Positions 1 to 64,000 of a DNA stretch of 64,000 nt are shown piece after piece (the first letter of the stretch is position 1; each line of letters begins with the position of its first letter). Origin of the DNA: Tetradesmus obliquus (taxonomy: Eukaryota; Chlorophyta; Chlorophyceae; Sphaeropleales; Scenedesmaceae); assembly GCA_030272155.1 (NCBI GenBank), contig CP126206.1, forward strand, positions 2,728,001-2,792,000, written 5' to 3'. The position numbers and the translations under genes were made by a program. The notes under the pieces are model-generated. The model saw only the letters and a list, made by a program, of their open reading frames with translations, was not told where the DNA came from and ran no database searches.

Positions 1-32
1 CCGCAAGGCGCGCCATCTACTCTTGTACGCGC
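1..32 (-). repeat. Echo of the last ALYREF exon end
   Basis: This short stretch repeats the last codons and stop of the ALYREF final exon (functional copy near 95-120) in the same orientation, just past the gene. It is degenerate and cut by the window edge. It belongs to the junction-echo class seen throughout the window. Confidence 0.5.
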
Positions 33-102
33 TGGCTGCTGTAAGCACCAGCTGCTGCAGGCACTGCTTCCTGCAAGCGCAGATCGCTGCAAAGCGCCCC
101 AT

Positions 103-2888
103 CTACTCCTGCATGAAGTCGCCCTGGGGTGCGCCCCTGCCCCTGAAGCTGCCACCTGCTGCCGCTGCTGCTGCTGCCTGCTGCGCCTGCCTGCTGACAC
201 TGCAGCAGCAACACACATGGCAGTGGCGAGGGCAGCGCAAATTTAAATGTAAGAGGGTGCGCAGTAGCAAAAGGGTGATGGAGCAGGTGTGGCAGAGAAT
301 GCTTGCACCCTGGCCGGTGTTGCGGCAACTCAATTAGCAGGCTGCACGCCCCACCAACACAGCCCGCAGCACTGCCAGGTACCAGTCTAGACAGCAGTAG
401 CGAGCACTGACGCGTGGCGCTGGCAAGCCCTGCCTGCAGCAGAACCACATGCGACTGCACGACAACCTGCAGCCAGCCTCGCACTTGATGCCGCTGCTGC
501 GCGCCTTCATCTGTGTGCGCGCACAATACTGCGCTCCCACCACCATGATGCACACAGCAATGAAACAGCCTCGCCGACACAGCCTAAACCACAGCGGCCG
601 CACTCACTTGATGCCGCTGCTGAGGGTCTTAAATGTGCCCCGGGGCACTGCGCTCTCCACGACCTCGATGCTTACGACAAGAAGTCAACAGCCTCAGTAA
701 GGCGCAAGCACAGCAACTGCACTCACTTGATGCCGCTGCTGAGGGTCTTGAAGGTGCCCCGCGGCACTGCGTTCTCCACAACCTCGATGCTCAATGCTGA
801 GAACAACAACAATGACAGCCTCAGTAAAGGAAACTGCTGCGGCCGCACTCACTTGATGCCGCTGCTGAGGGTCTTGAAGGTGCCCCGGGGCACTGCGCTC
901 TCCACGACCTCGATGCTCATCTTCTTGTTGTCCAGGGCCACGTTGTTGTAGCGGTTGAACGCCGCCAGCGCGTCGCTGCGCTTCTCAAACACCACATATG
1001 CTGTGCCCATGGAGCGCCCGCTGCAAGCGCAAAGAAAAGTGAGCACAACAATGTCAGCACAACACGAAGTAAGCCATGTGCGAACGGCGAACGGTACGGT
1101 GATCATGGGGAGCCCGCTGCAACAAACAAAGAAACAGGAGGTGGGAGGCAGGCAGCAGGTGTAAGGTCAGCGCAGTGATCTTCTTGTTGTCCAGGGCCAC
1201 GTCGATGTAGCGGCTGAACGCCGCCAGCGCGTCGCTGCGCTTCTCAAAGACCACATATGCGGTGCCCATGGAGCGCCCGCTGCAAGTGAGAAGACAGTAC
1301 ATAAAACAGCAGCAAGCAGGCGATATGTCAGCAAGGCACATACAGGCCAGTTTGTCGTAGTGGATGCCGGAGTCCTTGATGGTGCCCACTGTGCTTAGTC
1401 ACCACAACGCCCTGATACACACACGCGCCAGCGCACCTCTTGATGTAACACACAAGCCAGAGTCCTTCATGAGGCAGACACCAAGATCTAATGAAAAGAG
1501 AAATGCCGACAACAAACTCATCAGCAGTCTCACCTCTTATCGTAGTGGATGCCAAAGTCCTTGATGGTGCCCACGCGCATGCCACGCAGTCGCACCGACT
1601 CTAGCACAAACACACGCTGGAGTGCTGTGCCCGCATGTCGAACACAACATTCACAGTATGCTCAGGTGATTGACAACATGAAGCAGTGCAGCTCATCGCA
1701 CCTCTTGTCGTAGTGGATGCCTGAGTCCTTGATGGTGCCGACTGTGCCGAATAGCTCCTGGATGTCCTCGTCAGTCACCTTGAAGTCCAAGTTGGAGATG
1801 AAGCTGCGAACGTGACACAGCAGCAGCAGCAGCAGCAGCATGTGTCAGTGGCGGCAGCAGCACGTGATGTGCTCGCAGGTCACCTCAAATAAGCGGGTCA
1901 GAGGTGAAGCTGCAGGGGGTAGGCAGGTATGAGCGCATGGCAAGTTCACAGCCGGATCTAATCCATCGTGACACGGCACGCTGGCAACAGGACTGCCAGA
2001 TCAACAACAGCAGCTGCAGTGGAACAACTCGAGACACATCACAACCACTCACAGCTTGGAGGATGTGCTGCTTGAAACCACGGAGCCGTCAAAGAGGTCG
2101 TTCTGCCACTTGCCGGACTGCGGCGCTGGTGCTGCTGCTGCAGGCACGGCAGCAACAGCAGCAGCAGGCGCAGCCATGGGCATGCCGCCTCCCATGCCTG
2201 CTGCCATACCCATGGGGCCCATACCCATGCCCATAGGGGCGTGGTAGGGGGCCTGCTGCATCATGCCGGGGTGCATGTTGCCCATGAATCGAGTCTGCAT
2301 GCCGCGTGGCATGCCCATACCCATGCCCCTGCCTCCCAAGCCACCCCTGCCTGCCATAGGAGCCATACGCATGCCCATGCCCCTGCCTCCTGCTGGGCCC
2401 CTTCCGCCCATCTGCGGGCGAGCGCCAGCGCGTGGCACGACGCGAACATCGGGCTGGCTCTTGGGCCGCTGCTGCTGCTGCGATCGGGAAAGGCAGGGGC
2501 AGGGGGTGCGCGGGCAAAAGTCAGGTGGTTGACAAGGACAACTGTTAGGGTCTACAGGTCCCGCAAAGCAGCAGAGCATGTATAACTAAACAGTAATTAT
2601 GCTTCTGAGCATCGTACACAGCGATCGCATGGCCCTGCGCACCTTGCCAGCACCAGGCTTGGCTACACCGCCCTTGGGCTTCAGCTGTACGCCAGTGCCC
2701 TTCTTTTGCTGGCCAACTGCAGGCTTGGCTGCTCCCTTGCCCCCTGCACCCTTCTGCTGCGTGCCCGGCTTTCCAGCCTGCTGCTTCTTCTGCGCGCCAG
2801 GCTTGCCTCCAGCCTGCTTGCCTGCTGGCTTTGTGCGGCCTGATTTCTTGATCAGGTCATCCAGGGACATGTCCAGCTTGTTTGACAT
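103..2888 (-). CDS. ALYREF: ALY/REF mRNA-export adaptor (THO complex subunit 4)
   Basis: Spliced model of five exons: 2888-2643, 2477-2053, 1803-1702, 1020-853 and 199-103, with a 345-aa product and whole phase. The start is set by the family's N-terminal UAP56-binding motif (MSNKLDMSLDDLIKKS). A basic G/K/Q stretch follows, then a Met/Gly/Arg-rich RG segment (about residues 90-200), KWQNDLFDG, one RRM from about 224 to 300 (LFISNLDF as RNP2, GTAYVVFE as RNP1), and a C-terminal GGSFRGRG tail ending at the stop at 103-105. ALY/REF proteins bind spliced mRNA in the nucleus, contact the helicase UAP56 and hand mRNA to the export receptor. What is odd is the introns: those around the RRM exons hold several partial copies of the RRM exon ends with working-looking splice sites. 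The last, short exon is the least certain. Confidence 0.88.
481..795 (-). repeat. Three echoes of the ALYREF RRM exon 3' end
   Basis: The end of exon 4 (functional donor at 853/852) recurs with equivalent ends at 728, 609 and 486, so the steps are 125, 119 and 123 bp. The first two copies keep about 65-70 bp of exon and the donor GTGAGTGC; the outermost keeps only about 30 bp. All are in sense orientation inside intron 4. Each intact donor could act as an alternative 5' splice site. Confidence 0.85.
1109..1279 (-). repeat. Echoes of the ALYREF RRM exon 5' end
   Basis: The acceptor and first part of exon 4 (functional start 1020) recur at 1279, with about 100 bp of exon reading GRSMGTAYVVFEKRSD and onwards with few changes. 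A short remnant lies at about 1119. The copy at 1279 has an intact CAG acceptor and an open frame, but no matching 3' end follows it. Confidence 0.85.
1348..1575 (-). repeat. Echoes of the ALYREF exon 3 end
   Basis: The exon 3 end encoding IHYDKR (functional end 1702) recurs with ends near 1534, 1437 and 1348. The copy at 1534 keeps a GTGAGA donor, the one at 1437 is worn but keeps GTGCGC, and the one at 1348 has lost the donor GT. All lie in intron 3 in sense orientation. Confidence 0.8.
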
Positions 2889-3594: not shown

Positions 3595-3632
<38 letters not shown>

Positions 3633-5242: not shown

Positions 5243-8176
5243 GCTGCCTATTTGTACAAGCGCAGGCCACCATTGCCCCAAGCGCAGCCAATGTGAACAC
5301 GGTGCACCTGCAGCGCAACGACGCGCTCGGCTTCATCATCGTGCAGCAGTGGCTGGCGCAGCACCTGCGGCTGGAGCTGCAGCTGCTGGCAGGCACATAT
5401 GTGCTAGTGCCTGCGCATGACATCCCGTTGCTTGGTGGGTTGCATAAGAGGTGTGGCTTGCATATTAGTGAGCAGCAGCTGCACACCTAGGGCGGCAGCT
5501 GCAGCTGCTGCCCGGCACATATGCGCTGTGCCCATACATGACATCTCCATGGTTGGTGGGTTAGCACAGAGGTGTAGCTTGCCACACTAGTCAGCTGCAG
5601 CTGCAGTGGCTTGCACAGCACCCAGGGTGTCAGCTGCAGCTGCCGGCAAGCAGATATGTGCGGGTGCCTGCGCACGGCATCGCGCTGCTTGGTGAGTTGC
5701 GGCCGTTACTGCTGCTGCTGCTGCTGCCAGGTGATGGCGGCGATGCGGAGCGTGCAGCGATCCCTCTGCGGGTGCGGCAGGTGGCTGCAGTGGAGCTGCC
5801 GCCAGCAGGCTTGCAGCAGCAGCAGCAGCAGCAGCAGCAGGCTGCTGCGTCGGCGCTGGTGCTGCTGGAGGGTGGCGGGGAGGTGGCTGCTGGGCGGCTG
5901 GTTGAGGCGCCGCTGACAGACATGACGATCGTGCCAGGTCACCAGGTGAGAGAGAGTGAGAGCAAGTGAGAAGGAGTGAGGATGTGTGAGGGATTTTGAG
6001 AGAGCAAGTGACTCAGAGGGTGGTGGAATTGGAGGCGGCGCTGACAGACATGACGATCGTGCCAGGTCACCAGGTGAGAGTCTGTTGGTCGTGGTGTCTT
6101 ATGTCTGCTAATCTCGTGGTGTCCCGTATCTGCTTATAGTAGAGTCCCATGCCTGCTGATCTCGGAGTGTGCTGCTGCATGTGCTGTGCTGCTGTATGCG
6201 CTGCGCGCCTTCTTGCGCGCAGGAGCAGTGCTGCGAGGTGGCTGTGCTGCAGTGCCAACAACCGCTGGCAGATTGGGCAGATGGTGCGGCAATGGCTTTA
6301 TTGGCCCTGCTGTGTGCTTGCTGCTTTCCTTTGCGCGCGCAGGAGCTGTGCTGCGAGCTGGCGTCGCTGCAGTGCGAGCAGATGGTGCCGCTGCTGACGC
6401 TGCAGCAGCTGGCGCACACGGTGTGGCGGCTGCAGCTGTGCACCGACTTGGAGGGCATGATCGCCGCATCTCACAAGGTGAGCTGTTTCCTTTCTTGATC
6501 AGCCAAGCAAAAGTACAAGGCATCTTGGGTTGAACGCTCGCTTCCATGTATGACGTGTGGCGGCTGCAGCTGGGCACAGACCTGGAGGGCATGATCACCG
6601 CTTTTGACAAGGTCAGCCGTAGTTTTTTCCTTTGTTTTTCTACAAGCAATAGTACAAGGCTTCTTGGTTTGGATATTTGCTTCCATGTATGTGTATGACG
6701 TGTGGCGGCTGCAGCTGTGCACCGACTTGAGGGCATGATTGCCGCCTTTGACAAGGTGAGCCACCTCTTACAAACCGCGCTGGCGTTTGGATGTTTCTTT
6801 CCATGTACATATGTTTCAGCGCTGCACAGACCTGGAGGGCATAGTCACCGCCTTTGACAAGGTGACCCATTCACGCCGCGCTGCGCTGACACTCACTGGT
6901 GCTGTCTGCTGATGTCTGGTCATGCTGCACATGCCTGCGCTGCGCTGTGCGCTGCTGCCCTGATGGTGCTGCGCTGCTGTTGTAGCATGCTGCATGTGCC
7001 TGCGCTGCGCTGCCTTGCGCTGGCACGTGCCCGTTCTGTTCGCTGCATGTGTCTGCAGCGGCAGCAGCAGGGCCTGCGCAGTATGCGCCTGGATGCGGAC
7101 ACAGAGCGCAAAGCTGACATACAAATCGCTTCTCTGCTGCTGTTATGCAACATGCCTGCAGGAGCCTAGACGCCGCAGCCACGCAGCATATGACGCCACT
7201 GCTGACTGCCCTGCTGCTGACCATGTGGCTATGCTGCTGTGCTGCTGTTGCCTCAAGCCCCTGCAGGAGCAGCAGCATAGCCTGAGTGAGCTCGGCCTGG
7301 AAGCGGACACGCAGCACAAATCAATGCTGCTGACTGCACTGCCGCTGACTGTGCTGCTGTGCTGCTGTTGTTGGCTCATGCCTCTGCAGGAGCAGCAGAA
7401 CCTGAGTGAGCTGGGCATGGACGCAGACACGAAAGCCAATGCAGCCGCCAACAGCTACGCGATGATGCGGGCTCGCATCCAGCAGCTGCCACAGCCCGCC
7501 TTCATCACAGAGGTGAGGCGCGCATTTGCTTTCCTTTCATAACCCAGCTTGGGCTCAGAGCATGTGGCTGCGCACTCCTCATTTTGTGCTGAAGATATTA
7601 ATTGCTCGGCTGCCGCTGCAAGTGCTAGCGTTTGTGAAGCAGCAGCGTAGGGGCCTGGAGGGGCTCCAGCTGCGGCTTATTCTGGTTCTGACCGCCCCAT
7701 GCACTGCTGGTATTTTTGTGCGCTGCTGCTGCAGGTGCTGGCCTGCCTGAGGAGCTACCTCATTAGAAGCTGATGTGCTAACGATTTTGATAACTCTGTT
7801 TTGTGTATTGCTGCAGGTGCTGGCGTATGTGGAGCAGAAGCCGAGGGGCCCTGAAGGCCTCAAGCAGCGGCTGAATTTTGGTAACAACCAATCCATGCGC
7901 TGCTGCTATAATTGTGTGTGCGCTGCTGCTGCAGGTACTGGCATATGTGGAGCAGCAGCCTGGCCGCATCGAGGAGCTATCGCACCAAATGCTTATGTGT
8001 TGGTGTTCTCTAATGTTTATATTTGGCTGTATTTGGCTGCTGCTGCAGGTGCTGGCGTATGTGGAGCAGCAGCCGGGGGGGCCTGAGGGCCTGAAGCAGC
8101 GGCTGGAGGCAATGGACGCCACCTGGCAGCAGTACAGGCAGGACATGATGGCAGGCAAGCTGCCGCAGCATCTGCC

Positions 8177-8211
<35 letters not shown>

Positions 8212-10019
8212 GCTTTTTGGGTGCCATGGCGCCAGCTCCTGCAGCAGCAGCAGCAGCAGCAGCAGCAGTGGGTGAGAGCTTCGGCAACATGCAGCACCTA
8301 GATCTGCAGCAGCAGCAGCAGCCATACAGCCAGCAACAGCCTCAGCAGCAGCAGCTGCTGCCAGGGGCTGGCTCGGTAGGGTTTGATGCTGGCGGCGGCG
8401 GCTTAGGCCCTGGTTTAGGGTTTGATGAGGACCACTTGTTTGATGACCCTACAGGCCTAGGAGGGCTGTCTCCTCTCTCTCATGCTGTGGCTGCTGCTCC
8501 ATCAAGGACCATTGCAGCACCTGCTGTGCTTCAGGGGCAAGGCAGCCTAGGGTTTGGCATGGCTGCCGGCGGCGGTTTGGGCGGTGCTGGCGTGGGCAGC
8601 TTCCAGACGCCTACACAGCAGCAGCAGCAGCGGCAGCAGCGGCAGCAGTTTGGTTCAGGGCCGCCGTCTGGAGGAGGGTTTGGTGGTATGATGCAGCAGC
8701 AGCAGCAGCACCCTGCAGATTTGCAGGCATTCATGACAAAGTATGACAGCAGCGGCGGCGGCGACAGGGCAGTGGGGCGCAGCAGCATGAGCGGATCTGG
8801 GTTGCTAGATGCAGCAGCAGCAGCAGGTGGTGGTGGCGGTAGTGGCGGTGGGGCAGGGCCGAGCGCAGATTACAGCTACTGGGTACAGCAGGGCGACAGG
8901 ACAGCAGCACAGAAAGACCCCCGCACACGCAGAGCTCAGGGACTCATGATGCAGACAACAGCATCCGCATCTGCTGCTGCTGCTGCTGGCCGCCCTCAGG
9001 GTCCGGGGGGTTTAGGGTTTAGCCACGGCATGGCGCCACCTGGTGGTCAAACCCTGAACCCTGCAGGCAGCGGCGGCGGTTTTGGCTGGGAGGGCCCGCC
9101 AGCTGGCAGCTTTGCTGTGCCCCCAGGGCTAGGCAGTGGCGGTTTTGCAAGCCAGCAGCAGCAGCAGCAGCGGCCTGGCGGCAGCAGCGCAGGTGCTGCC
9201 AGGGTGTCTGTGTTAGACCGGCTGGGACCTGCAAATGCAGATGACAGCCAGCAGCAGCAGCAGCAGCAGCGGCCGCGCAGCAGCAGGCATGAGTCGCCGC
9301 AGCCTTTGCGTGGTGGCAGCGGCAGCAGCAAGCGTGGCCGCAGTCCTGAGCTGCATGCCAAGCGCGGCAGGGAGACCAGTAGAGACAGGGACAGGAAGCG
9401 CAAGGAAGCTGACCAAGACAGGGAGAGAGCCAGCAGCAGGTGGGTTTGCTGTGCTTGTATCAGCACACTGTTGCAGTGGTGCAAAGCGGGTGCTGCGCGC
9501 ATGCATGTCTCTGCTCAAGCATGTGCATGTTTGCAGGACCATGCATGCACTCTCGCTAGGCGCGCAGCAGCTGCTGCCTTCTGCCTCTGCACCTTGTGTC
9601 ACACGTAATCGCCAGGTGGAGCTGCACCTTGTGTCACACGTAATCGCCAGGTGGAGCTGCACCTTGTGTCACACGTAATCGCCAGGTGGAGCTGCACCTT
9701 GTGTCACACGTAATCGCCAGGTGGAGCTGCAGTGGTGCTGCCATTGCAGCGCTGCGTGACATGCTGTTAACTATGTCACGGTTGCTGCTGCTGCCCCTGC
9801 TGCTTGCAATGCTTGCAGGGACCGTGGCCGCAGCAGTGGCAGCAAGCGGCAGCAGCGTAGCAGGAGCAGGAGCAGAAGCAAAGGCCGCAGCCCCGCACGC
9901 CCGCCAGGCAGCAGCAGCAGCAAACATGCAAACCATGCTGGCAACAGCACGCGAGACAAGGACCGACAGGACCCCAGACCGGCAGCACGGGAGCGCAGCA
10001 GGGATTGTGAGAAGGCCCC

Positions 10020-10052
<33 letters not shown>

Positions 10053-12738
10053 CAAAGATTCTGGCGGCCGAGACAAGGCTGCTGCTGGCAGCGGCGGCGG
10101 CAGCGGCAGCAGCAGGGATAAGGAGAAGGACAGGGACCGGGATAAAGCCCACAGCAAAGATGGCAAGGGAACTGTCAAGCAAGTGCATGTCAGCAGGCCC
10201 CCACCGCCTGAGGTAGCAGACATCTTGCAAAGGCTGCTGCCCCAAGGCCCGCACAGCGCTGAGAAGGGCAGCAGGCAAGCCTTAGAGCGCCTCCGCAGCC
10301 GCAGCCGCAGCCGCAGCCGCAGCGCAGAGCGCCGCAGGAGCAAGCGCAGCCGGGGGATCTCACCTCCTCCTGTTGCACGCTCGCCGCGCGACGCGGCAGC
10401 AGCAGCAGCAGCGGCGGCGGCGGCTGGGCCGGGTTTCAGGGTTGGCAGCCCTGCTGCGCCGCGAGTGGACTTGAAGGAGGCCCGGCGGCGCTTTGCTGGG
10501 CGGCTGGAGGGCGCTGACGCGCTGTTTGGGCAGGTGTCGGCGGAGGCTGAAACACGGGAGTGGCTGCACAGGTGGGCGTGCTGCTGTGCATGTGACTGCA
10601 GAACCCGTGGTGTGCATCATCAAGTGGATGTTGTCTCCTGGCTGCATGGCCTGCTGCGCCTGGAGCGCACTTGTTGCATTGTTGTTACATCATGAACATC
10701 CACACTTCCAGCGTTCACTCTACAGCCCTGGTGCTGTGTGTGCTGTGCAGTGTGCATGCTGCCTGCAGGCTGGCTGACCTAATGCACAGGAAGCGCATTC
10801 ACAGCAATGACACATCAGCAACAATCATCGCTTGCAGCTTGCACTCTTCAACCCTGGTGCTGTGTGTGCTGCGTGCTGCCTGCAGGCTGGCTGACATGCT
10901 GCGCAGGGAGCGCACGCACAGCGTCCACCTGGGCATGATTGTCCGCCACATGCCCATACCCATGGAGGTGAGCGCAAGAGTGTTTGATGCAATGCTAATG
11001 GCAGAAACATTGCATTAGCTGTGGTTTGCTTGCAGCTGGGTGTCATTGTCCGCCACCTGCCGATACTTATGGAGGTGAGGGCAAGTTTTTTGATTAGATG
11101 TTTGTGCAGACAAACAGCATTGTGCTTTGTGTACACCTGGGGGTCATTGTGCCTGCGCTGCCTGTGTTCGCCTGATCCCATTGCCCATATCACACAAATG
11201 CAACAGGTGTACAAGCGCTGGGGCGGCGTGAACAGTTTCCTGTCCCTGCACCTCGCGCTGACCTACCAGCCCGCCACCAAGCTGGCGGGCCTGCTGGAGG
11301 GCGTTGACCTTACATATGTTTCCAACTTGCGTTTGTTTCCACGCCACCTGGTGTGCAGGCACTGGCACGGCATCTTTTGTCTTGCTTCCTGGCGCTGACG
11401 CATGCTCAACACTGCCTGTGCCTGCCTGGTTTGAACATGTACTTGCTCAAATTTTAATGCTCGCAGGTGTACAAGCGCTGGGGCGGCGTGAACAGGTTCG
11501 TGTCGCTGCACCCCGCGCTGACCTACCAGCCCGCTACCAAGCTGGTGGCCCTGTGTTGTATATGGGACACCTCATGCCCATGCCTGCGTCCTGCGGCTCA
11601 CAGGTGCACCGGCGCTGGCGCAGCATCTGCTCTTTCCTCTTGCTGCAGCACACATTGCTAAATGCTGAGGGCTGCCTGTGTCTGCCGTGCTTTTGCTATG
11701 TACAACAGGTGTACAAGCGCTGGGGCGGCGTGAACGCCTTCCTGTCGCTGCACCCCGCACTCACCTTCCAGCCTGCCACCAAGCTGGCGGGCTTGCTGGA
11801 GGGCATCGACTTTTGTTTCGTTGACACGCCACCTTGTGCGCAGGCACTGGCGCGGCCACTTTCGGCTTCCTGGCATTGACACATGCTTAATAATGCCTGT
11901 GCCGGCCTGCTTTGTACCTGCTCGTGTGTTATTCCCGCAGGTGTACAAGCGCTGGGGTGGCGTGAACGCCTTCCTTTCACTGCACCCCGCGCTGACCTTC
12001 CAGCCCGCCACCAAGAAGGTGGGCCTGCTGGAGGGCATTGACCTAGATGCAGTGCCCATGCTGCCACCTCCAAGCCGCGAGCAGCAGCAGCAGCAGTGGC
12101 GGGAGCCGCCTGGCAGGCGCGGTGAGTCGCCGGGCGGTGGCCCCGGCAGGTTTAGGCATGAGGGGCCACCGCCGCCGCATTGGGAGAGAGGCGGGCCACT
12201 CTCACCGCAGCAGCAGCCGCAGCAGGGGCGATTTGGTGGGGGCTTCTCTGGCAGCGGCGGCGGCAGCAGGGGCAGGAGCAGGAGCCCTGGCGGCGGCCGG
12301 CCTGCAGCAGCAGCAGCAGTGATCCCGGCGCTGCAGCTGGCGCAAGAAGACCCTGCAGCTCGGGAGCTGCGGGAGCAGGTGCTTGCGTTTGCGAGCTCGC
12401 TGCGGCAGCAGCTGGCCACAAACCTTCCGGAGCATCAATTGGAGCTTGCGGAGGCTTATGCGCTGCTGCCGCTGCAGCTGCGAGATAAAGTGTCTCCCGG
12501 CTCGCCAGTCGACATGCAGAAGTTCCTGGAAGATAACATCGGGGGCGTCAAGGTGGTGCGGCAAGACGGCCGCATGCTGGTGCAGGGGCTGGAGCCGGGC
12601 CAAAACCGCGAGCCGCAGCCGCCGCGGCAGTGCGCGTACTGGGATGCAGGCAGCTGGCTGGGGTGCTTCAAAGCAGCGCGCTGCAACTTCAGGCATGCGC
12701 TGGGGCCGTCTGACAGGGACCTGAAGATGTGGATCTAG
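4101..12738 (+). CDS. SR-like RS/Q-rich nuclear protein with C-terminal CCCH zinc finger
   Basis: Nine-exon model: 4101-4913, 5266-5434, 5731-5945, 6343-6477, 7390-7512, 8049-9439, 9819-10571, 10886-10967 and 11941-12738. It gives 1,492 aa with all phases consistent. The N-terminus is rich in RD/DR repeats and poly-Q. Two unrecognised folded segments follow (exons 2-5, about residues 272-485), then a Gly/Gln-rich disordered region, an RS domain (near 10290-10360), and a final exon with a conserved-looking N-terminal stretch (VYKRWGGVNAFLSLHPAL) and a CCCH finger (C1458-X10-C-X5-C-X3-H1479). RS plus CCCH architecture is typical of nuclear RNA-processing factors; the exact role is inferred only. 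I do not recognise an orthologue. At least six of the eight introns carry junction echoes of the flanking exons. Confidence 0.75.
5005..5172 (+). repeat. Two echoes of SR-CCCH exon 2 start
   Basis: The acceptor and first 40-50 bp of exon 2 (functional start 5266) occur earlier at 5005 and 5125, so the steps are 120 and 141 bp. All three keep an AG acceptor. CTG arrays at about 5075-5104 and 5197-5240 separate them. The copies encode variants of ATIAPSAANVNTVHL. Confidence 0.88.
5497..5691 (+). repeat. Two echoes of SR-CCCH exon 2 end
   Basis: The 3' end of exon 2 (functional end 5434, encoding LAGTYVLVPAHDIPLL) recurs with ends at about 5554 and 5691, so the steps are 120 and 137 bp. The last copy keeps an exact GTGAGT donor and reads well, so it could compete as an alternative exon end. 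Confidence 0.85.
6036..6073 (+). repeat. Echo of SR-CCCH exon 3 end
   Basis: About 38 bp of the exon 3 end (functional end 5945) is repeated with its GTGAGAG donor, 128 bp downstream. The copy is nearly perfect, which suggests a recent event. Confidence 0.88.
6223..6262 (+). repeat. Echo of SR-CCCH exon 4 start
   Basis: The acceptor and about 35 bp of exon 4 (functional start 6343) are present 120 bp upstream. The intron just before each copy is also alike (GCGCGCAG), so intron and exon were copied together. Confidence 0.85.
6551..6861 (+). repeat. Three echoes of SR-CCCH exon 4 end
   Basis: The exon 4 end encoding WRLQL.TDLEGMI (functional end 6477) recurs with ends at 6611, 6755 and 6861, so the steps are 134, 144 and 106 bp. 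Each copy keeps an AAG/GT donor. The outer copies read AFDK where the model exon reads ASHK, so it is not certain which copy is ancestral. Confidence 0.87.
7059..7320 (+). repeat. Three echoes of SR-CCCH exon 5 start
   Basis: The acceptor and 5' end of exon 5 (functional start 7390, QEQQNLSELGMDADT) occur at 7267, 7162 and 7059, so the steps are 123, 105 and 103 bp. The copies at 7267 and 7059 are the better preserved; the one at 7162 is short. Confidence 0.82.
7622..7980 (+). repeat. Four echoes of SR-CCCH exon 6 start
   Basis: The acceptor and first part of exon 6 (functional start 8049, VLAYVEQQPGGPEGL) recur at 7935, 7817, 7735 and 7622, so the steps are 114, 118, 82 and 113 bp. Copies at 7935 and 7817 keep CTGCAG acceptors and an open frame for about 15-20 codons. 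The 7735 copy is only a few codons long. Confidence 0.87.
9590..9731 (+). repeat. 35-bp minisatellite, four near-identical units, in SR-CCCH intron 6
   Basis: The core ACACGTAATCGCC recurs at 9601, 9636, 9671 and 9706, an exact 35-bp period with identical units. Each unit contains CCAGGTGGAGCTGCA, which has an AG/GT junction. The array lies in the intron between 9439 and 9819. Perfect identity points to recent expansion. Confidence 0.93.
10769..10800 (+). repeat. Echo of SR-CCCH exon 8 start
   Basis: The acceptor and about 30 bp of exon 8 (functional start 10886) are repeated 117 bp upstream, with the same CTGCCTGCAG acceptor and a variant of RLADMLRRERTH. Confidence 0.85.
11036..11074 (+). 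repeat. Echo of SR-CCCH exon 8 end
   Basis: About 38 bp of the exon 8 end (functional end 10967) recurs 107 bp downstream with an intact GAG/GTGAGG donor. Confidence 0.85.
11207..11880 (+). repeat. Three long echoes of the last SR-CCCH exon start, about 240-bp units
   Basis: The first 70-105 bp of exon 9 (functional start 11941) recur at 11709, 11467 and 11207, so the steps are 232, 242 and 260 bp. Intron sequence between copies is also repeated (around 11340, 11600 and 11840), so the whole segment is a tandem array of intron plus exon start. Every copy keeps a CAG acceptor and an open frame encoding VYKRWGGVN and onwards. No clear donor follows the upstream copies. Confidence 0.9.
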
Positions 12739-46684: not shown

Positions 46685-46733
<49 letters not shown>

Positions 46734-46793
46734 GCTGGAACCTGGTGGCATGCTGGCCAAGCTTCTGCTGCACCTCATTGATTAGCCCAGAGA

Positions 46794-46826
<33 letters not shown>

Positions 46827-47754: not shown

Positions 47755-47787
<33 letters not shown>

Positions 47788-50329: not shown

Positions 50330-50835
50330 AAGTTCCGACGAGTGTGCTGTGGTGAAGATGATGCTTTGCCTGGCCTACCTGGACAGAACCCTGGGCCTGC
50401 CCCTGGCTGGCAAGCTGTAGTGTTGCAGCTCATTCTGGTTGTGGCGAGTTGAGGGCGCTGTGGTGCAGATGTTGCTGTGCCTTGCATATCCTTGCAACAG
50501 CCGCTGGCTGGTGTATAAGAACAAATTTTGGGTGCTGGTGTGCTCAATATGAAATTTCGTATTTGGCTGCGGCAAGTTGCCGCTCGAATGTGCGGTGGTC
50601 ACCACGGTGACGATGATGCTGTGCCTGGCCCACCTGGATACTTTCTGGGACTGCCGGTGGCTGGCGAGCTGTAGTTCAACTACAGGGTAGTAACCTGCAG
50701 CTGCGCCGCACAGGATGTAAGATGTTGCGTGTTGAATATGATGGGCCTCGTCATCAGATGTGCCTGACCTACCTGGCTGTCCCCTGGCCAGCCCCATGGG
50801 GTTGCCACTGGCTGGCCAGCTATTCAGGCCCGGTC
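50330..50835 (+). repeat. Four echoes of the asparaginase C-terminal coding end in the 3' region
   Basis: The final codons plus stop (functional stop 50304-50306, LPLAGEL) recur with equivalent ends at 50420, about 50518, 50674 and about 50825, so steps are about 114, 98, 156 and 150 bp. Copies grow less alike with distance. They lie past the stop, so they are in the 3' UTR or beyond it. Confidence 0.88.
50716..50720 (+). terminator. Candidate poly(A) signal of the asparaginase gene
   Basis: TGTAA lies 410 bp past the stop, among the 3' echoes. A second TGTAA occurs near 50858. Confidence 0.35.
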
Positions 50836-55444: not shown

Positions 55445-55719
55445 GTGCTGCCAGAACCGACGAGCACGCTGTCCCTGCGTATGCCACTGATGTCTGTGGC
55501 AGTCGCCCGTGCGTACAGTGCAATGCGTGTGTTGAACTGCTTTCAGAGAATCGGACTTGGACATACCTTTATATGAACCCAAGCTGACTTGTCAAGCAAC
55601 ACTGACAAAGAGCACCCGCTCAACTTGCGGGTTGAACCCTGGAACCACAGCTTGTAGTCACTCCCCAGCATCTGAGGATACAACTCTTGAACCGTCCCAC
55701 CGATGACCTCATCTCCTTC
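55445..55719 (-). CDS. Candidate exons of an unrecognised gene
   Basis: The minus strand 55719-55567 reads as 51 open codons (from EGDEVIGGTVQELYPQML to SVLLDKSAWVHIK) bounded by an ACCAG acceptor and a GTATGT donor. A second open segment, 55536-55445, reads FNTRIALYARATATD and on to RRDSVLVGSGS and ends at a GTAAGT donor. The composition looks coding and unlike the low-complexity surroundings. The two are only 30 bp apart, so either the gap is an extremely short intron or one segment is spurious. How they join to the 54190-55251 frame is unclear. Partial copies of the first segment lie upstream at 56650-56710 and 57160-57215. Confidence 0.4.
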
Positions 55720-58220
55720 CTGGTGTCCATGTTGTTTGCCAAACACAGTGTGCCCTGCCAAGGCACCAGCTGAAGGCACTGCTGAATGGCAACGGTTTAC
55801 GTTTGACAGTTCACACATGTGCAACGGTTCAAACCTACTAGGGATACTTTTCGGGCCATTCCTGCTTGCACCATCAGCATCAGCTAGTTGCCATCCAAAT
55901 AGTGTTGAGGGCCCACTCAGCTGCTGGCTGAGGCCGCCTGGGGCAGTGGCAAGGCAAGCCCATATGGGCATGGGCCATGGGCATGGGCAAAGCGTGGCAG
56001 TATCTTGCAAAGGCAAATGCTAAGCTTCACCACATACCAAATCTGTATTTTTCACACTTCAAGATTCAAGGTGCAAACGCCCCAGCAGTGCAGCAGATGA
56101 CAGCTGTGGCAGAACTGCAGTGCAACGCAAGCTTCAGTACGTAAAGTCGTCCTCCTCTACTCCGAAAGGGGGACAAACTTTCACCTCACACAAATCCCTA
56201 TGAGATCACCGCCGTTGTAAGTTGGCAACTACTGCGATGATTGCAGATGCTTGTGTGGAGTAGTTCCAGCAGCACTGCTTACTGCGTATCGTACGACACA
56301 GAACGTGCACAGTACTAGGCACATGATGGCGTTGCATGGATGTTCAACTGCAAACTGATAGGCATAGATGCTTGATCAGAGGGTAGGAGGTCGCGCATCC
56401 GCCGTGTTGCGACAGCATCAGCTACGGCAGTTGAACCACAGCACACATCGCGATCACTGCTGCGGGCACCGGCACCCCCTCAAACAGGTATCAAATTAAT
56501 GCTGACAAGACGATTTTTCATGTTCCGTGCGCCATATCAGAAAAACCTGCTTCGTCACTGTCCGCACGGCTGCTCCAGTCATTTGCCCAGTCACTGTGTC
56601 AGTTCAGGCCGAAGGGTTCACGGCCTGCTCAGCTTACGGTGGGGCGGTATACAACTCCTGAACCGTCCCACCGATGATCTTAACTCCTTCCTGGTGTGCA
56701 TGTTGGTCGTGTCCTTCCAAGGCACCAGCTGAAGTGACTTCACCAGTGGTGCTGCTGCATTGCAGCACTGCTGAATGGCAAACGGTGTACGTTTGACAGT
56801 CCACAGACGTTAAAAGTTACTAGGGATGTGTTATCAGGCCAATCCTGCTTTTCTCAGCAAAATCAGCATCAGGCTGTTGCCATCCAAACAGTGTTGAGGG
56901 CCCCACTCAGCTGCTGGTTGAGCCAGAGGTGGCAGTCTCTTGCAAAGGCAATGCTTCACCACATGCCAAATCTGGGATTCTTAAATGTAAAGATGTCACG
57001 GTGCAAACGGCCTCAGCAGTGAAGCAGCTGGCAGCTGTGGCAGAACCTGCTTCGTCACTGTCCGCACCGCTTCTCCAGTCATTTGCCCAGTCACTGTGTC
57101 AAAGAGGGCGGAAGGGTTCACGGCCTGCGCAGCTTTCGGTAGGGCGGTATAGAGCCTTCATATACAACTCCTGAACCGTCCCACCGTCGACCTTAACTCC
57201 TTCCAGGTTTGCATGTTGTGCCTGTGCAGGACATGTCCTCAACGCCACTCTGGCTTGCATGCCATATGCTGCTGGTGCAACATCAACCAGTGAAAGTTGA
57301 GGTCAAACCAATACAGACTAACAAAGCAGCACCAGCAGCATCACACCATGCCCAGATAGGGTTGGACGCCAGCCAACCAGCCAACCAGCCAACCAGCCCA
57401 GACAATGGTCAGCTAGCTGTACCGTACAGCACAGCCTGTGTCACACGGTGTAAAATGACGAATTCTAGACAAAGCCAGGATGCCGAAGCACGCTGGTCAT
57501 GCACAGCTGCGCACCTTCAAGCCAGGTGTGACACTGTGTGCATGATGCGCCGCAGGGCAGAGCCATTGCATGCCAAGCTTGACCGTGAGTCCAAACAACA
57601 AAGTTCAGCAACGTTCGAGGTGCAAATGGTGTAAAACGCTTGACAAAGTTGCTGTCACTCGCACCACTGCAAAGGACGTTGCTGCATGCCGGTACTGCTG
57701 GCAGCGCTGCCATTCAAAACTTTGGACACCCACCCTAGCTGTGGTGGAATTGCGGTACAAACTGATGTAAAACGTTCCTCAACAATTTAAACCAACCATT
57801 CAGCCCTTCATGCGACGAAAGTCTTGAGCTTCCCAACCTCTACGCCTGCAGGCGTGAGACAGACTGCTCGTTCATGACTGCGCAGAGCTTGGCTCCTGCA
57901 TGACTATGCATGAATATTCAAGATTATTCCAACATCTACAAAACGTATTTGAGAAGAAATACTCGCGCATCGGCCACACTGCGATAGCATTCAAGACGAG
58001 GACGGTTACAGCACACGCCGCGGTCACTGCTGCCTGCACGGTTACCCCCTCATCTGGGTATTAAAAGCATTGTATTAGAATGGTTTCTCATATTCCGTGG
58101 TCCGTTTCTGCGGACAACGCGTATGCACGGTCCGCACTGCTGTTCTTGTCACTCGCCTGGTCACTGTGTCAATTGGGGCGGAAGGGTTCACGGCCTGCTC
58201 AGCTTACGGTGGGGCGGTAT
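55672..58220. repeat. Local repeat family in a gene-poor stretch
   Basis: Two blocks recur in the same orientation. Block 1 (core TCACGGCCTGCTCAGC followed by TACGGTGGGGCGGTAT) occurs at about 56385-56649, 57049-57158 and 57965-58220. Block 2 (core TGAACCGTCCCACCGATGA, then ACGTTTGACAGT and GCCATCCAAA.AGTGTTGAGGG) occurs at about 55672-56115, 56650-57048 and 57159-57230. The 56385 and 57049 copies are about 500-510 bp apart in shared parts. Block 2 starts inside the candidate exon at 55567-55719, so the family may be longer echoes of that exon with its flanks. No transposase, terminal repeats or target-site duplications were seen. Confidence 0.75.
57371..57397. repeat. (CCAACCAG)n short repeat
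   Basis: Three to four 8-bp units, in non-coding sequence. Confidence 0.8.
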
Positions 58221-58661
58221 TGAGGAAGCTGACAAAAGACATTGGCAAACGGACAAGCCACGAACATCACTGCCACAGCCCCCCATAGCAGCCAGAGAGG
58301 AGAGGTGGGCTGCCCACGCAAGAATTGCAGGTACAACTCACTGCCAGTGACGGGCTGCTGCCCAGTACCTGTAGTTCGTAAGTGACCTGGATAATGCACC
58401 TCATCCACAGCAGGAATATGTTACACACTCTGCAGCAGAAACGTTCGTCCAACTCCCAGGGGGTGCTTGACGTGCACTGGCAATCAGCGGCTGCCTGGCA
58501 GGCGGTGCTGCATTTTTGCAGCTCAAGTACATGCGGATAGGTGGCTCTGCAGTGCAGCACTGCCTGGCAGGCGCGATGCTGCCGCAGTGTACCACAGATT
58601 GTGCTGCTGCATGTGGCTATGTGATGCATCAGTGGCTGCTCAGGCTTCACAACACGTCGCG

Positions 58662-58812: not shown

Positions 58813-59656
58813 TTACAGCAGGTCCCGTGCCAGGAATGCTGCCAGCTCCGCCTCCTCTGCATCCTCCTTGGTGGACTCAACCACCACCTGCAGCAGCAGC
58901 AGCGCCGCGGCGACGACACAGTGCAATGAGCACTTTGGAATAAACGACGCTGGGCATGTCACAACTTGAACACATCTGCAGGCCAGCAAGATAGCGCTTC
59001 CACACTGGTCAAGTACAGATACAGGTTATGCAAAACTCAGTCACGCGGGCACATCCTAAAGCAACTCGGCGAAGTTGCATGATAGCCGTTCAACTTGAAT
59101 AACAGCCCCGCCGCCCACCTTGCGTTGTGGCGGCCTGCTCCTGTACATGACAGGCTTGCCTGTCTTCTTGAACACCGGCGCAGCAGCGCGCTCCAGTGCC
59201 CGTGCCACGCGCGTCTCATGCTCTGCTCGTGCTGCTGCCAGCTTGTCCTCTCGAGCCACCTGGCGGCGCTCACGCTCACGGCCCTTCTCGGCTTCTGAGA
59301 CCTGCGACACAGTGAAGCACGACACACAGATAAAGGATATGTGCAATGTATGCTGCGCCACCTGGCGTCGTTCACGCTCGCTGCCCTTCTCGGCTCTGAG
59401 ACCTGCGGCAGCATCACAGGCATGACCACACTTGTCAGCGGTTTGCACGCTGCCAGCTTGTCCTCTCGAGCCACCTGGCGGCGCTCACGCTCACGGCCCT
59501 TCTCGGCTTCTGACACCTGCGGCATGCAGCAAAGCAGCAGCAGCAGTGGCAGCCACAATGTTGCGTTGGTGGCCTGCCAGTGATTGGGGAACCTTGTGTG
59601 CCACCTGGTGGCGCTCACGCTCGCGGCCCTTCTCAGCTTCTGACACCTGAATACAC

Positions 59657-59692
<36 letters not shown>

Positions 59693-62203
59693 ACAGCTGT
59701 GAACGGGGGCGTGCAGGAAGCCAGCTTGTCCTGGCAGCGTTCGCAGCCCTTCTCAGCTTCTGACACCTGAAATGTAGCGAGGGCAGCAGCTGCAGCTACC
59801 AAATGTTCCTGCGGCAGGCCACAACTGCCGCCAGCGCCTCCTTCACATCAACGATTTGGCTGCCTTAACCTATGTGCGCTGCCATTGTGCATGGCAACCA
59901 ACAGAAGCATGCACCCACCTGCTTCTGCGGCAAGCCCGCCACTGCTGCCAGCGCCTCCTCAAGAAACAAAGACTGGTGCCAGAATTGCACGTCTGCTTCA
60001 CACGCGCTGTCATTGTGCATGGCAGACAACCAAATCATGCACCCACCTGTTCTTGCGGCAGGCCCGCCACTGCCGCCAGCGCCTCCTTCACATCAACGAT
60101 ATGGCTTCCAACCTATGTGCGCTGCCATTGTGCATGGCAAGCAACATCATCATGCACCCACTCTTGCAGCAGGCCCGCCACTGCGGCCAGCGCCTCCTCC
60201 AGGTGCACCTGCTGGCTGCTTACTTGAAGACGCGCTTGCAAAGCTAGCTAAAGTGCGCAAGGACAGCAGCCGCAGCCACCTACCTGCTCTTGTGGCAGGC
60301 CCGCCACTGCAGCTAGCGCCTCCTCCAGGCGCACCTCGATGCTGGTCAGCATGGACAGCGTGGCCAGGCTGGCATCGGCGTCAAAGCCGCACCTGCAACA
60401 TGAAGCGCAATAATAGATGGACAATAGTCAGCCGGCAGACAGGAGCGTGCATCAGTGTAGGTTATGGACAGCGTGGCCGGGCTGGTGTCAGCGTCAAAGC
60501 CACACCTGCAGCAGACACAGGAAGACAACAGGCAGCAGGCAGACATGAGCGTACTCTAGCAGATGCATGGACAGCGTGGCCAGGCTGGCGTCAGCGTCAA
60601 AGCCGCACCTGCAGCGGAGACACAAAACAAGCAGACCAGTAAGCATATCAAGCAGCCAGCAAAGCAGGCACAGCATGGACAGCGTGGCCTGCAGCGGAAA
60701 ACAACACAGCACACAATTCAAGCATTGCCAGCTGCTGAACATTGAATGCGCGCAAGAGACACAGGCTGGCATATTGAACCAACCGCACGTGCAGCATGCC
60801 CAAGAAAGACGCCATGGCTGCCACAGTCCCTGCTCCTGCTGCTGCTCACCTTTGGTAGACCTGCGCCACCTTGCTGCTGAGCTCCTCCAATGACACCACC
60901 TCCCCGCCATCACCTGCTGCTGTTGCTGCATTCCCGTCTTCCTGGCTGCTGTTGGTGCCAGCACCGCGGCTTGCATTGGCACTGCTGCTGCTGCCACCGC
61001 CCAAGCACAGCCTGCTCTGCGCCACCTCGCCTTCTGCTGCCCTGGCTTTGAGCAGAGCTGCACGTGCAGAGGCTGCAGCGATGGCGCCTTCCAGCGCTGA
61101 TATCTGGCTCTGCAGCAGCAGCAGCAACATGCAGTGTTGAGTGATGTGAGCTTGTGAAAGAGCAAGCAATCTGAACACACATGCAGAAATGCAAGAGGCA
61201 TTGCCATGCTAAACCACGCTGAAGTTCTATTGTGCAATGAGGTGCATGTTCACGGCTGCAGCAGCTGCCAGATTGAAAGGCACCGAGCGCACCTGCAGCC
61301 CTGTCACTTCTGCATTCAGCTTCTCCTGCGTGGCCCTGCGCACACACTTACACACAGGTGGTGAAGCATCTGTGTAGAGCCAACAACTCGTTTGTTTCAC
61401 ATTTACAAAGCAGCAAGCTGGCCTGACAGACACACTGCCAAGGCCATGGTGTGAATGTGCGCATCAGCCTGGCTTGGTAGCCAAGCGGATGCTTGTGCAT
61501 CTTTTTGCAGCCCACGTCAGATTGTACGGTACTTGTGCAAATGTCACAGCTTACACAACTGCCACAGAACAATGCTAAAATGATGCACCTCTAGCCAGCT
61601 GAACCTGTAGTCTCCACGGATCTTACTCAGCTGCTCCTCACTCTCCAGCACAGTGACTGCTGCAAGTTCATGCACAGTGTATCCACAACAAGATAGACAA
61701 CAAAACTGATATGTGGCCCCACCTGTAGTGTCCGCGGATTTCCTCCAGCTGCTCCTCACTTTCCTGGCACACCTGGATGAGGAACAGGTTGGACTCCTCC
61801 AGGTCGGCATACACCTGCGTGGCAGCAGCATGCAGCAGCAGCAGATCGTCAGAAGCTGTACTGCCCTGCTGCGCACACAGCGTACCCCTTGTTTTGAAGC
61901 CAGGTTCTCACAGCACCCAAGCCTGGTCATGCCCGTCAACCCAGCATAGCATGCTACGCATGAACTCTCAAACAGCACAACACTTGTTACAGAGGTGACA
62001 GAGAGCAGTTCTGAAAAATGCAGTTCGTGTCAGTCACATCCGCACCTGCAGCAGCTGCTGTGGTGCTGTGAAGTACATGGACTCCAGACTGGAGCAGGCA
62101 CTGCTGCCAGCAGCAGAAGCAGCAGGTCCCGCCACGCCAGCAGCCGCAGAGGAGGCATCATCAAACACTGGAGGAGGAGGCTCTTTGGCTTTGTTGGCCT
62201 CCT

Positions 62204-62235
<32 letters not shown>

Positions 62236-63929
62236 GTTGGCACGAGGTGACAGGTTGTCATCACGTGGCTGTTGTGCTGCCACCCCCTTTTCGTTGCGTT
62301 CCAGCTGCGGTTCAGCCCCGGCCGCACTGCTGGCGGCATCCTCAAACTAGCATGACGTAACAGCCTATGACAGAAAATCACGCCTTGCCTTGAGTGCAGC
62401 TGTGGCCTCCTTGATCGCCCGCTCAGCCTGTTCTGCCTCCTGCTGCGTGTGTGCATTGCTGAAGTCCGCCTCCGCCTTTGACCGCGCTGCTGCGGCGGCC
62501 TCGCGCCGCGCCCGCAGTGCATCACACTCTGCACGCCACGCTGCCAGCTGCTCTTGGCGCCGTTGCTGCGTACAAAAAAAGGCAACAGGTATGAACAGGG
62601 TTGGCATGCTGGTTGCCTGGAGGTGCCTTGCTCCTTGGTAAGAAGAGCATGCACACACGAAACCTTCGATCTGTGTGAGTATCTTGCAGGTGCAGCCAGC
62701 TTGTGCCAGGACTTGGATGCGATGCTGTCTGGCAAGAGCTGAAATTGCGATGGCGCCACTTGCTGATGGTCACTGATGCACCTCCTGGCGTGCCGCTTGT
62801 GCCACAAACCACTCCTTGGGCGTGACACTGTCCAGGAACTCCTTATACCTGCAGCAGCAAGGAATCAGCGGCAGCAGCAGCCACACTGTCAGCTTCACTG
62901 TGAGCCGCATCAAGCCACATCACAATACACTGGGTGCAACAGCATTCAAAAACTCCTGCACTTGTACCTGCAGCGGCAAGGTGCATTTGGCAGCGTCCGC
63001 GCCAACCACACTGCAAGTTACGCAGTGGGCCGCATCAACACGCAAGTCACACCAGAGCAGTTGCAGCAATCAAGCACAGGTGCCATTAGCTGTCATCATC
63101 CTGTGCTGTGCTGGCCGATCTGGCCACAGCCCCACTCCCTGCAACCCTCCAGCACCTCCTCCTGCTTGTTGACCTTGTGGACAAACAACTTCAAGCACAA
63201 TGAGCTGACCACATGTCCTTGACATGTTATACATAGAACATCCTTATATATACAGTGCACGCACCTCCTGCAGTCCTCCAGCGCCTCCTCCTGCTTGTTG
63301 AGCTCACTGCGCAGCCCAGCAATGGCTGCATTCAGGCGCTTGATCTCCAGCGCCTGACGCAGCAGCAGCAGCAGCATTTAGGTGAGCAGCGCCCGATGCA
63401 GCCGCAACAGGCCGGCTGCTGCAGGACCACACTGTAGCCGGCTGGTCCCGGCGCTGTGCTAGGAGCGTCATCAAAACCTGGCCAACCACCCACAACCCAT
63501 ACGCAGCAAAGCTCATCCACTCAGCGCTGTCACTGTTATATCCATCAGTGTGCTGCATGCGGCTAAGGAGCACTGTCCCCACTGCCACCATCCCAGATGC
63601 ACTGCCCCATCACACCTTGTCCTGCTTGGCCTTCGCCTCTGTGTCTGCGCGCTCGAAGGCCTCCTGCACATCACTGTCAACAACCAGTATCCACTCTCCA
63701 CCCCACACAATCAGCCCCACACTGCCCTGCTTGGCCTTGGCCTCCGCGTCGCCATGCAACTGTACAGCATGCACAAGCGCCTGCCAACCCCACGCTCACA
63801 CGAATCAACACGCACCTTGTCCTGCTTGGCCTTTGCCTCTGTGTCAGCGCGCTTGATGGCCTCCTGCACCTTCTCGTCGTTCTCTTTCAAAAAGGCGTCA
63901 AAGCGCAGCCCGTCTTCCTCCAGCATCGC
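58813..63929 (-). CDS. CFAP100: CFAP100/MIA1 ciliary inner-arm regulator (5' end outside the window)
   Basis: Twelve exons: 63929-63816, 63353-63265, 62848-62782, 62565-62389, 62346-62284, 62201-62046, 61814-61723, 61335-61293, 61109-60850, 60392-60284, 59301-59119 and 58887-58813, giving 475 codons plus stop in phase. The N-terminal part is missing. Family signatures are the DUF4200-type coiled coil (LEEDGLRFDAFLKENDEK, EIKRLNAAIAGLRSELNK, YKEFLDSVTPKEWF), the YFTAPQQLLQ and YADLEESNLFLIQVCQESEE blocks, and FKKTGKPVMYRSRPP near the end. In Chlamydomonas MIA1 works with MIA2 in the axoneme to regulate inner dynein arms. The intron after 62389 starts with GC. If the last intron is kept, the protein ends at 59056 instead. 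Echoes flank nearly every exon. Confidence 0.87.
59340..59770 (-). repeat. Four echoes of CFAP100 penultimate exon start
   Basis: The acceptor and 40-70 bp of the exon (functional start 59301, VSEAEKGRERERRQVA) recur at 59402, 59516, 59646 and 59766, so the steps are 101, 114, 130 and 120 bp. All keep the AG. The copy at 59516 extends furthest, through REDKLAA. Confidence 0.93.
59800..60205 (-). repeat. Four echoes of a CFAP100 exon end
   Basis: The end of exon 60392-60284 (EEALAAVAGLPQEQ) recurs with ends at about 60159, 60047, 59919 and 59800, so the steps are 125, 112, 128 and 119 bp. Intron sequence (TGTGCGCTGCCATTGTGCAT and flanks) is repeated with them. The ladder ends where the ladder of the next exon's start begins. 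Confidence 0.92.
60460..60696 (-). repeat. Three echoes of a CFAP100 exon start
   Basis: The acceptor and the CGFDADASLATLSM start (functional 60392) recur at 60505, 60608 and, reduced, about 60689, so the steps are 113, 103 and about 81 bp. Confidence 0.9.
61592..61665 (-). repeat. Echo of a CFAP100 exon end
   Basis: The end of exon 61814-61723 (ESEEQLEEIRGHYR) recurs 118 bp downstream as ESEEQLSKIRGDYR with the CAG/GT donor kept. Confidence 0.88.
62945..62970 (-). repeat. Echo of a CFAP100 exon start
   Basis: The CTGCAG acceptor and first about 20 bp of exon 62848-62782 recur at 62967, a 119-bp step, in worn form. Confidence 0.65.
63118..63178 (-). repeat. Echo of a CFAP100 exon end
   Basis: The end of exon 63353-63265 (LNKQEEALEDCR) recurs about 129 bp downstream as VNKQEEVLEGCR; the donor is lost. 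Confidence 0.85.
63612..63755 (-). repeat. Two echoes of the first visible CFAP100 exon end
   Basis: The end RADTEAKAKQDK (functional end 63816) recurs with ends at about 63724 (donor lost) and 63616 (donor GTGTGA kept; reads VQEAFERADTEAKAKQDK), so the steps are about 92 and 108 bp. Confidence 0.87.
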
Positions 63930-64000
63930 CTGCAGGGCACGCAAAAAATGTGTGATGGGTTGAAGCAGCAGCAGCAGCAGCGCAGCTGTTGTGCAGGCAA
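63930..64000 (-). other. CFAP100 intron cut by the window edge
   Basis: Intron sequence upstream of the first visible exon, with a CAG/CTG array at about 63965-63982. Earlier exons lie outside the window. Confidence 0.6.

Follow-up and report, generated by a model that had tools for sequence, protein, structure and literature searches.

Partial copies of exon ends, edged at splice sites, in the introns of Tetradesmus obliquus

Tandemly duplicated and mutually exclusive exons are coding copies that carry splice sites and diverge in a coding-like manner, and in concerted evolution by ectopic gene conversion, coding parts are younger than their flanks. Both properties recur in the elements described here, which we call echoes: direct partial copies of the adjacent exon end, splice site included, that lie within the neighbouring intron. 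They were noticed in a stretch of 64,000 nucleotides, referred to as the window in the following (contig C16, positions 2,728,001-2,792,000), of the assembly of the green alga Tetradesmus obliquus (104.66 Mb, 17 contigs). Unlike tandemly duplicated exons, echoes are partial exons, and their acceptor-side copies come without a donor. Unlike in concerted evolution, the similarity is between an exon end and partial intronic copies, at many junctions, and no mosaic signal was found.

Intron gain by tandem duplication, in the available part of its description (PMC4974935), likewise involves direct duplication with splice signals and leaves the peptide unchanged. Here, however, existing introns grow and none arises, while the echoes are periodic, occur many times per gene and often lack the duplicated flanks. 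Introners and introner-like elements (PMC7789003, likewise available in part) are also abundant intron-associated repeats, but they are mobile and similar across genes, whereas echoes copy the local exon end. With tandem satellite arrays, echoes share head-to-tail direct copies at a fixed step, yet in most high-identity copies the similarity is limited to the exon end and the splice site. A literature search returned no title or abstract describing copies of exon ends edged at splice sites, with most subscription papers outside its coverage; the available main text of PMC7590803 has no hits for intron, exon or tandem, and the available part of PMC7955037 none for intron.

Abundance and spacing of the echoes

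Exon-end echoes are a genuine phenomenon that extends well beyond the window. Compared with itself by BLAST, the window yields 87 direct and 5 inverted repeat pairs, and Tandem Repeats Finder reports several arrays with periods of 90-128 bp. The comparison set consists of 20 regions of 10 kb at fixed round coordinates across all 17 contigs. When the window's first 60 kb are added, it holds 235 direct and 9 inverted pairs; dinucleotide shuffles of the same sequences hold 0. Shuffled controls had been proposed in a sequence-only reading of the window. The 20 regions alone contribute 165 direct pairs at most 600 bp apart, found in 18 of them. An Rfam scan of the window gave no hits.

Gene context comes from 19 modelled loci with 100 introns and 200 junctions, a non-random sample of 14 CCT/Cpn60 gene segments at 10 places and five window genes. 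A profile search of the genome for the chaperonin family PF00118 gave 61 matches, which were used to train a small codon-based gene finder; functional exons were chosen first by protein continuity and then refined with the gene-finder model. This continuity runs through existing introns, within which the echoes lie. In an unconstrained run, the same gene finder took many echoes for exons. The 19 loci contain 225 direct and 5 inverted pairs, in keeping with the direct orientation at exon borders that the sequence-only reading had described. The C2 locus is the only one without a direct repeat. In a kinesin search outside the training set, a profile segment of about 260-289 is listed three times on contig C2 beside a match to 263-326.

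Removal of 57 pairs without exon bases and 6 exon-exon pairs left 162, and 16 of these, beyond gene ends, were omitted from the adjacent-intron statistics. In each of the remaining 146 pairs, one member is a functional exon and the other its copy within the intron next to it (78 donor-side and 68 acceptor-side pairs); 137 of these pairs include at least 1 bp of intron. At least one echo occurs at 82 of the 200 junctions and in 58 of the 100 introns, and copies of exon-containing segments make up 13,152 of 50,621 intron bases (26%). There are 47 intron-intron pairs, 37 of them related to echoes and 10 unrelated. Both copies have a strong splice-site motif lying 2-8 bp inward of an end in 15 of 56 sharp pairs from the 20 regions (27%; 13 regions), against 11.7% when the ends are shifted inside the alignment; the same test in the gene loci gives 44 of 88 against a 6.2% control.

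Within the window, echoes were originally reported from all six multi-intron genes, with about 70 copies counted by eye. All five modelled genes indeed carry them, although not at each junction: of 58 junctions, 23 have echoes, amounting to 41 adjacent-intron pairs, and another 6 pairs lie past the modelled gene ends. The sixth candidate gene (17.7-22.5 kb) is outside the modelled set. Copies past a stop, also reported from the letters alone, are present, for instance at 50340, 50451 and 50606.

From their spacing, echoes seem to form arrays that repeat about every 120 bp and have lost members. Offsets of the 146 pairs fall at 80-150 bp in 57 cases and at 200-290 bp in 37. In the 20 regions and the window's first 60 kb, they peak at 110-130 and 240-260 bp, close to the steps of 100-130 and about 240-260 bp first noticed by eye; these peaks, near 120 and 245 bp, show the fixed step of a tandem satellite, though they are broad. 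At 15 junctions the nearest BLAST echo lies at 195-290 bp, and in 8 of these a weak decayed copy is found at about 100-130 bp. Where BLAST detects no echo, at 118 junctions, similarity is still weakly raised at 70-160 bp and, faintly, around 400 bp (z 2.4, 34 junctions), but not at 190-340 bp. Copies reach deeper into the exon with increasing offset (rho 0.35). The impression that copies decay with distance is not borne out as a general rule: offset and exon-part identity are uncorrelated (rho -0.06, p 0.46).

Edges and divergence of the copies

Most high-identity copies end abruptly: they comprise a portion of the exon and some 5 bp of the splice site. Flank tests require an aligned junction, so that 133 of the 146 pairs enter the edge profile and 137 the analyses of divergence by flank state and of splice-site scores. 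Among pairs whose exon parts are at least 0.88 identical (97 in all), identity on the donor side is 1.0,.98,.92,.69 and.92 at +1 to +5; beyond +5 it is.46,.37 and.38, falling to about.30. On the acceptor side, it runs outward from the junction as.96,.93,.98,.76,.76 and.58, falling to about.33. In 60 of the 97, the next 50 bp past the splice site align no better than the flanks of other genes (|z| < 2); z exceeds 3 in 23, and the values are continuous, not in two clear groups. Copies carrying intron sequence with them, as first described, are thus a minority. The edge is visible by eye in the best alignments, and the inner edge lies at arbitrary exon positions.

In some pairs the intron flanks align too, which makes them full tandem duplicates, and where at least 25 intron bases align, intron divergence (19.4%) is close to third-position divergence (18.3%). 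Plain neutral tandem duplication followed by decay, in which short introns would make most tolerated duplications span a junction, fits these pairs as well as the direct, local and tandem-like arrangement. The unrelated flanks of the 60 pairs do not conform to it, and simulated duplicates, passed through the same BLAST pipeline with a uniform substitution spectrum assumed and the indel rate taken from the data, differ from the echoes in several respects. Unrelated flanks are seen in 61% of observed and 16% of simulated cases, and an extension of 1-8 bp into the intron in 45% of 99 high-identity pairs against 3.9%; exonic gaps number 0.29 per 100 bases against 1.39, and the codon-position ratio introduced below is 0.30 against 0.54-0.56. 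As the sole cause, plain neutral decay is disfavoured, and we consider it quite improbable. The first description as DNA duplications rather than retrocopies therefore stands insofar as the copies are local, direct and tied to exon borders, but plain duplication does not account for them fully. Retrocopies were rejected, as the copies include splice sites and no joined exons.

The sudden drop after +5 and the short intron extensions would be expected if exon ends, cut at the splice site, entered the adjacent intron by RNA- or spliceosome-linked repair. Such copying predicts neither a period of about 120 bp with decayed intermediates nor the pairs with aligned flanks; we know of no mechanism of this kind and regard it as rather unlikely. 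An introner or transposon was rejected after two filler stretches, searched genome-wide with very common words skipped, matched only themselves and the local echo: 49186-49340, in an asparaginase intron, was unique, and 42480-42760, in an RPN7-like gene, matched itself and the echo at 42408-42497.

The exonic part of an echo stays protein-like while the surrounding DNA drifts. Given the sharp splice-site ends and a coding-like divergence, both unlike a passive duplicate, simple duplication and decay is insufficient. Mismatches between functional exon and echo number 164, 146 and 521 at codon positions 1, 2 and 3, a divergence ratio of positions 1+2 to position 3 of 0.30 (bootstrap ranges 0.23-0.37 over 79 junctions and 0.25-0.38 over 18 loci), where a free echo should give at least 0.5. 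The ratio is 0.27 against fourfold sites and only 0.365 without CpG sites, so that CpG mutability was rejected as the whole cause. Differences between echoes are likewise biased to the third position (122/135/365). Changes private to a single echo (57/74/135 by codon position) are less biased than those separating an exon from its echoes (14/8/68). Two observations speak against intact coding: of 27 exonic indels, 21 have lengths that are not multiples of three, and stops arise from 8 changes. Before gene models were available, 3-periodicity was weak (0.517 against 0.471 expected, in pairs of at least 85% identity).

Exon divergence is nearly constant across flank states. From similar to unrelated flanks (the end classes comprise 26 clearly similar and 52 unrelated pairs), it is 5.0, 5.2, 4.5 and 6.7% at positions 1+2 and 15.7, 18.4, 18.6 and 19.9% at position 3. 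The correlation of flank score with exon identity is weak (rho 0.15, p 0.09), compared with 0.46 under simulated neutral duplication. Where the flank is lost, exon part and flank thus differ in age. At 10 residues of 3 genes that occur only in T. obliquus, 15 of 18 echo observations have the exon's residue, 2 that of the relatives and 1 neither; most exon parts thus coalesced after the split from these relatives.

Splice sites and origin of the echoes

The splice sites of echoes score almost as high as functional ones. Median scores are 6.96 for echo donors, 8.09 for functional donors and -3.0 for other intronic GT, and 6.44, 7.32 and -1.3 for echo acceptors, functional acceptors and other intronic AG. 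Even with unrelated flanks, echo acceptors have a pyrimidine fraction of 0.66, compared with 0.69 at functional acceptors and 0.50 in the intron interior. These values agree with selection on echoes as decoy or regulatory splice sites (unproductive splicing, intron retention or exon definition), which would conserve the site with its exonic context, as does the scarcity of nonsynonymous changes and indels relative to free drift. We nevertheless think selection unlikely: low third-position divergence next to random flanks would require recent coalescence too, codon-position bias is not a prediction of decoy function, and most exonic indels break the frame, while some changes introduce stops.

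The coding-like pattern and the strong outer splice sites might also mark real alternative or mutually exclusive exons. An acceptor-like inner edge (score >4) is found in 17% of donor-side echoes and at 10% of random intron places, so that single cassette exons are possible there. Acceptor-side echoes, by contrast, were rejected as cassette exons, having a strong donor at the inner edge in 0% of cases against 9% at random. Use as an alternative 5' or 3' splice site is disfavoured by frame and stop tests, since the distance from echo to functional site has no modulo-3 bias (p 0.41) and read-through from the echo reaches a stop in 105 of 137. The annotated asparaginase protein contains no echo, and no transcript from T. 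obliquus itself was identified. Judged from their sequence, echoes do not look usable as exons, and alternative exons are in our view very improbable.

One protein record favours alternative exons: the T. obliquus CCT-epsilon record P0001 (UniRef A0A383W8E2) has a 15-residue insert, the final ten residues of which match those encoded at the end of exon 10 in our model. The insert was not found in the present assembly's locus, where the local echo reads differently; apart from it, our model and the record differ only at the N-terminus, which lies outside the model. This single case suggests that echoes differ between T. obliquus records. The insert itself may reflect a strain difference or an annotation error.

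The gene models were made within this analysis, from assembled sequence, which makes an artefact conceivable, whether from the assembly, from collapsed haplotypes or from the gene models. However, several diverged copies per junction occur on all 10 contigs with modelled chaperonins but C2, the models agree with the annotated asparaginase and with the CCT-epsilon record, and that separate record has an echo-like insert of its own. We find an artefact barely credible.

The account we favour, tentatively and at somewhat less than even chances, combines tandem birth with homology-limited exchange with functional templates. Junction-spanning tandem duplications with a unit of about 80-150 bp would recur and lengthen T. 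obliquus introns. Splicing would tolerate them, since a copy stays intronic whenever the outermost splice site is chosen; those past the stop would lie outside the coding region. Repeated duplication would yield arrays with a period near 120 bp, in which the intronic parts would later drift to randomness and certain copies decay. We infer such a tandem birth for the sharp-edged copies too, and further that the exonic part and the splice site are then kept alike by an exchange limited by homology, either ectopic gene conversion or recombination out of register, because only exons and splice sites remain alignable. The coding-like pattern would come from functional templates: the exon and, probably, other alleles. 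The allelic step is hypothetical; according to the available part of PMC7955037, a sister genome is likely diploid and has alternate haplotype contigs.

Several points weigh against this account. A runs test for conversion mosaics is null (z -0.09; 69 triplets with short blocks and low power). Simulated conversion, with any mix of directions, gives a ratio of positions 1+2 to position 3 of at least 0.56 instead of 0.30, so that conversion alone was rejected as the cause of the codon bias; reaching about 0.30 requires removal of about half of the nonsynonymous echo changes. Allelic templates or selection would therefore be required, neither of which is observed. Moreover, the unit of about 120 bp has no explanation, and nearer copies are sometimes the decayed ones.

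A bolder reading, possible although doubtful, is a process anchored in splicing, in which exon ends cut at splice sites would either be copied to the intron next to them or be maintained there, in steps of about 120 bp and at near coding quality. Introns would then store an exchangeable reserve of exon ends that drives their growth.

Echoes would supply a concrete route for intron growth. Mean intron length is 462 bp in T. obliquus, compared with 230, 302, 284 and 270 bp in four other algae (Table 1, PMC5966456, available part), and echo-driven growth could contribute to this difference. Echoes also show conservation that ends at a splice site where no exon is evident, and they raise the question of how splicing ignores strong exon-like sites about 120 bp away. 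Furthermore, they may mislead gene annotation, as in our unconstrained gene-finder run and, perhaps, in the public CCT-epsilon record.

Echo-bearing genes and other repeats of the window

The two genes with named homologues are the following; offsets are in bp. P0241, a protein from a contig of 1,605 bases, matches the RPN7-like model without interruption at 91% identity.

45975-50306, plus strand: L-asparaginase gene, 100% identity over 96% to T. obliquus OEZ86_010397; nine modelled exons (45975-46031, 46384-46456, 46839-46918, 47269-47345, 47807-47916, 48126-48307, 48483-48583, 48996-49188, 50118-50306)
47385-47588, plus strand: donor-side echoes of exon 47269-47345 (offsets 99, 189, 231)
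47679-47743, plus strand: acceptor-side echo of exon 47807-47916 (offset 123, 89.2% identity)
48800-48844, plus strand: acceptor-side echo of exon 48996-49188 (offset 189, 87.2%)
49330-49434, plus strand: sharp-edged donor-side echo of exon 48996-49188 (offset 243, 92.4%)
49611-49681, plus strand: second donor-side echo of exon 48996-49188 (offset 491, 88.7%)
49865-49966, plus strand: acceptor-side echo of last exon 50118-50306 (offset 249, 90.2%)
50340-50672, plus strand: copies of the last exon's end past the stop (offsets 114, 225, 369)
41205-44554, minus strand: 26S proteasome RPN7/PSMD6-like gene (homologues named RPN7), six modelled exons (44470-44554, 44061-44182, 42656-42825, 42103-42208, 41802-41887, 41205-41394)
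43638-43980, minus strand: donor-side echoes of exon 44061-44182 (43895-43980, 93.2%; 43638-43699, 82.3%)
42884-43293, minus strand: acceptor-side echo array of exon 42656-42825 (offsets 110, 218, 324, 429)
42408-42497, minus strand: sharp-edged donor-side echo of exon 42656-42825 (offset 237, 95.6%)
41451-41514, minus strand: acceptor-side echo of exon 41205-41394 (offset 116)

The remaining three modelled genes are an RNA-binding gene that we take to be ALYREF-like, a presumed CID/SR-rich gene and a gene whose product is presumably coiled-coil. The last line gives an array in a gene outside the modelled set.

853-2888, minus strand: RNA-binding gene, four modelled exons (2643-2888, 2053-2477, 1702-1803, 853-1020)
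1352-1574, minus strand: donor-side echoes of exon 1702-1803 (1528-1574; 1352-1394, 95.3%)
1178-1294, minus strand: acceptor-side echo of exon 853-1020 (offset 259, 93.2%)
482-793, minus strand: last-exon copies past the modelled gene end (offsets 126, 245)
6343-12728, plus strand: presumed CID/SR-rich gene (exons 6343-6477, 7390-7512, 8049-9439, 9819-10571, 10886-10967, 11941-12728)
6555-6865, plus strand: donor-side echoes of exon 6343-6477 (offsets 134, 279, 384)
7199-7311, plus strand: acceptor-side echo of exon 7390-7512 (offset 128)
7608-7963, plus strand: acceptor-side echoes of exon 8049-9439 (offsets 114, 195, 427)
10687-10805, plus strand: acceptor-side echo of exon 10886-10967 (offset 125)
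11033-11150, plus strand: donor-side echo of exon 10886-10967 (offset 107)
11201-11810, plus strand: acceptor-side echo array of exon 11941-12728 (offsets 260, 502, 734)
58813-63929, minus strand: presumed coiled-coil gene, nine modelled exons
63613-63750, minus strand: donor-side echoes of exon 63816-63929 (offsets 95, 200)
63138-63175, minus strand: donor-side echo of exon 63265-63353 (offset 129)
61603-61646, minus strand: donor-side echo of exon 61723-61814 (offset 118)
60565-60613, minus strand: sharp-edged acceptor-side echo of exon 60284-60392 (offset 216, 95.9%)
59777-60090, minus strand: donor-side echoes of exon 60284-60392 (offsets 237, 365, 482)
59449-59649, minus strand: acceptor-side echoes of exon 59119-59301 (59449-59536, 93.2%; 59600-59649, 92.0%)
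19138-19829, minus strand (as judged in the gene-finder run without constraint): another array, with steps of 122 bp

The window also has other features. An intron at 9587-9731 (plus strand) holds about four perfect copies of a 35-bp unit without exon sequence, distinct from echoes, and an intergenic array at 16422-16816, with a diverged 42/84-bp periodicity, is unrelated to exons. Dispersed direct repeats at 55678-58224 (offsets 500-1570 bp, 70-86% identity) are perhaps remains of a mobile element. At 14668-15468 (plus strand) lies a single long open frame of 267 codons from stop to stop, with no direct repeat pair listed; its CCRTHDKCYD motif resembles that of secreted phospholipase A2. By eye, a long CA/CG-alternating stretch (cacacgcgcgcac) extends over about 29900-31000, apparently within a large intron. 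Elsewhere in the genome, contig C17 carries near its end, at about 7793-8949, a tandemly repeated unit of about 170 bp (86-90% identity), a candidate subtelomeric satellite.

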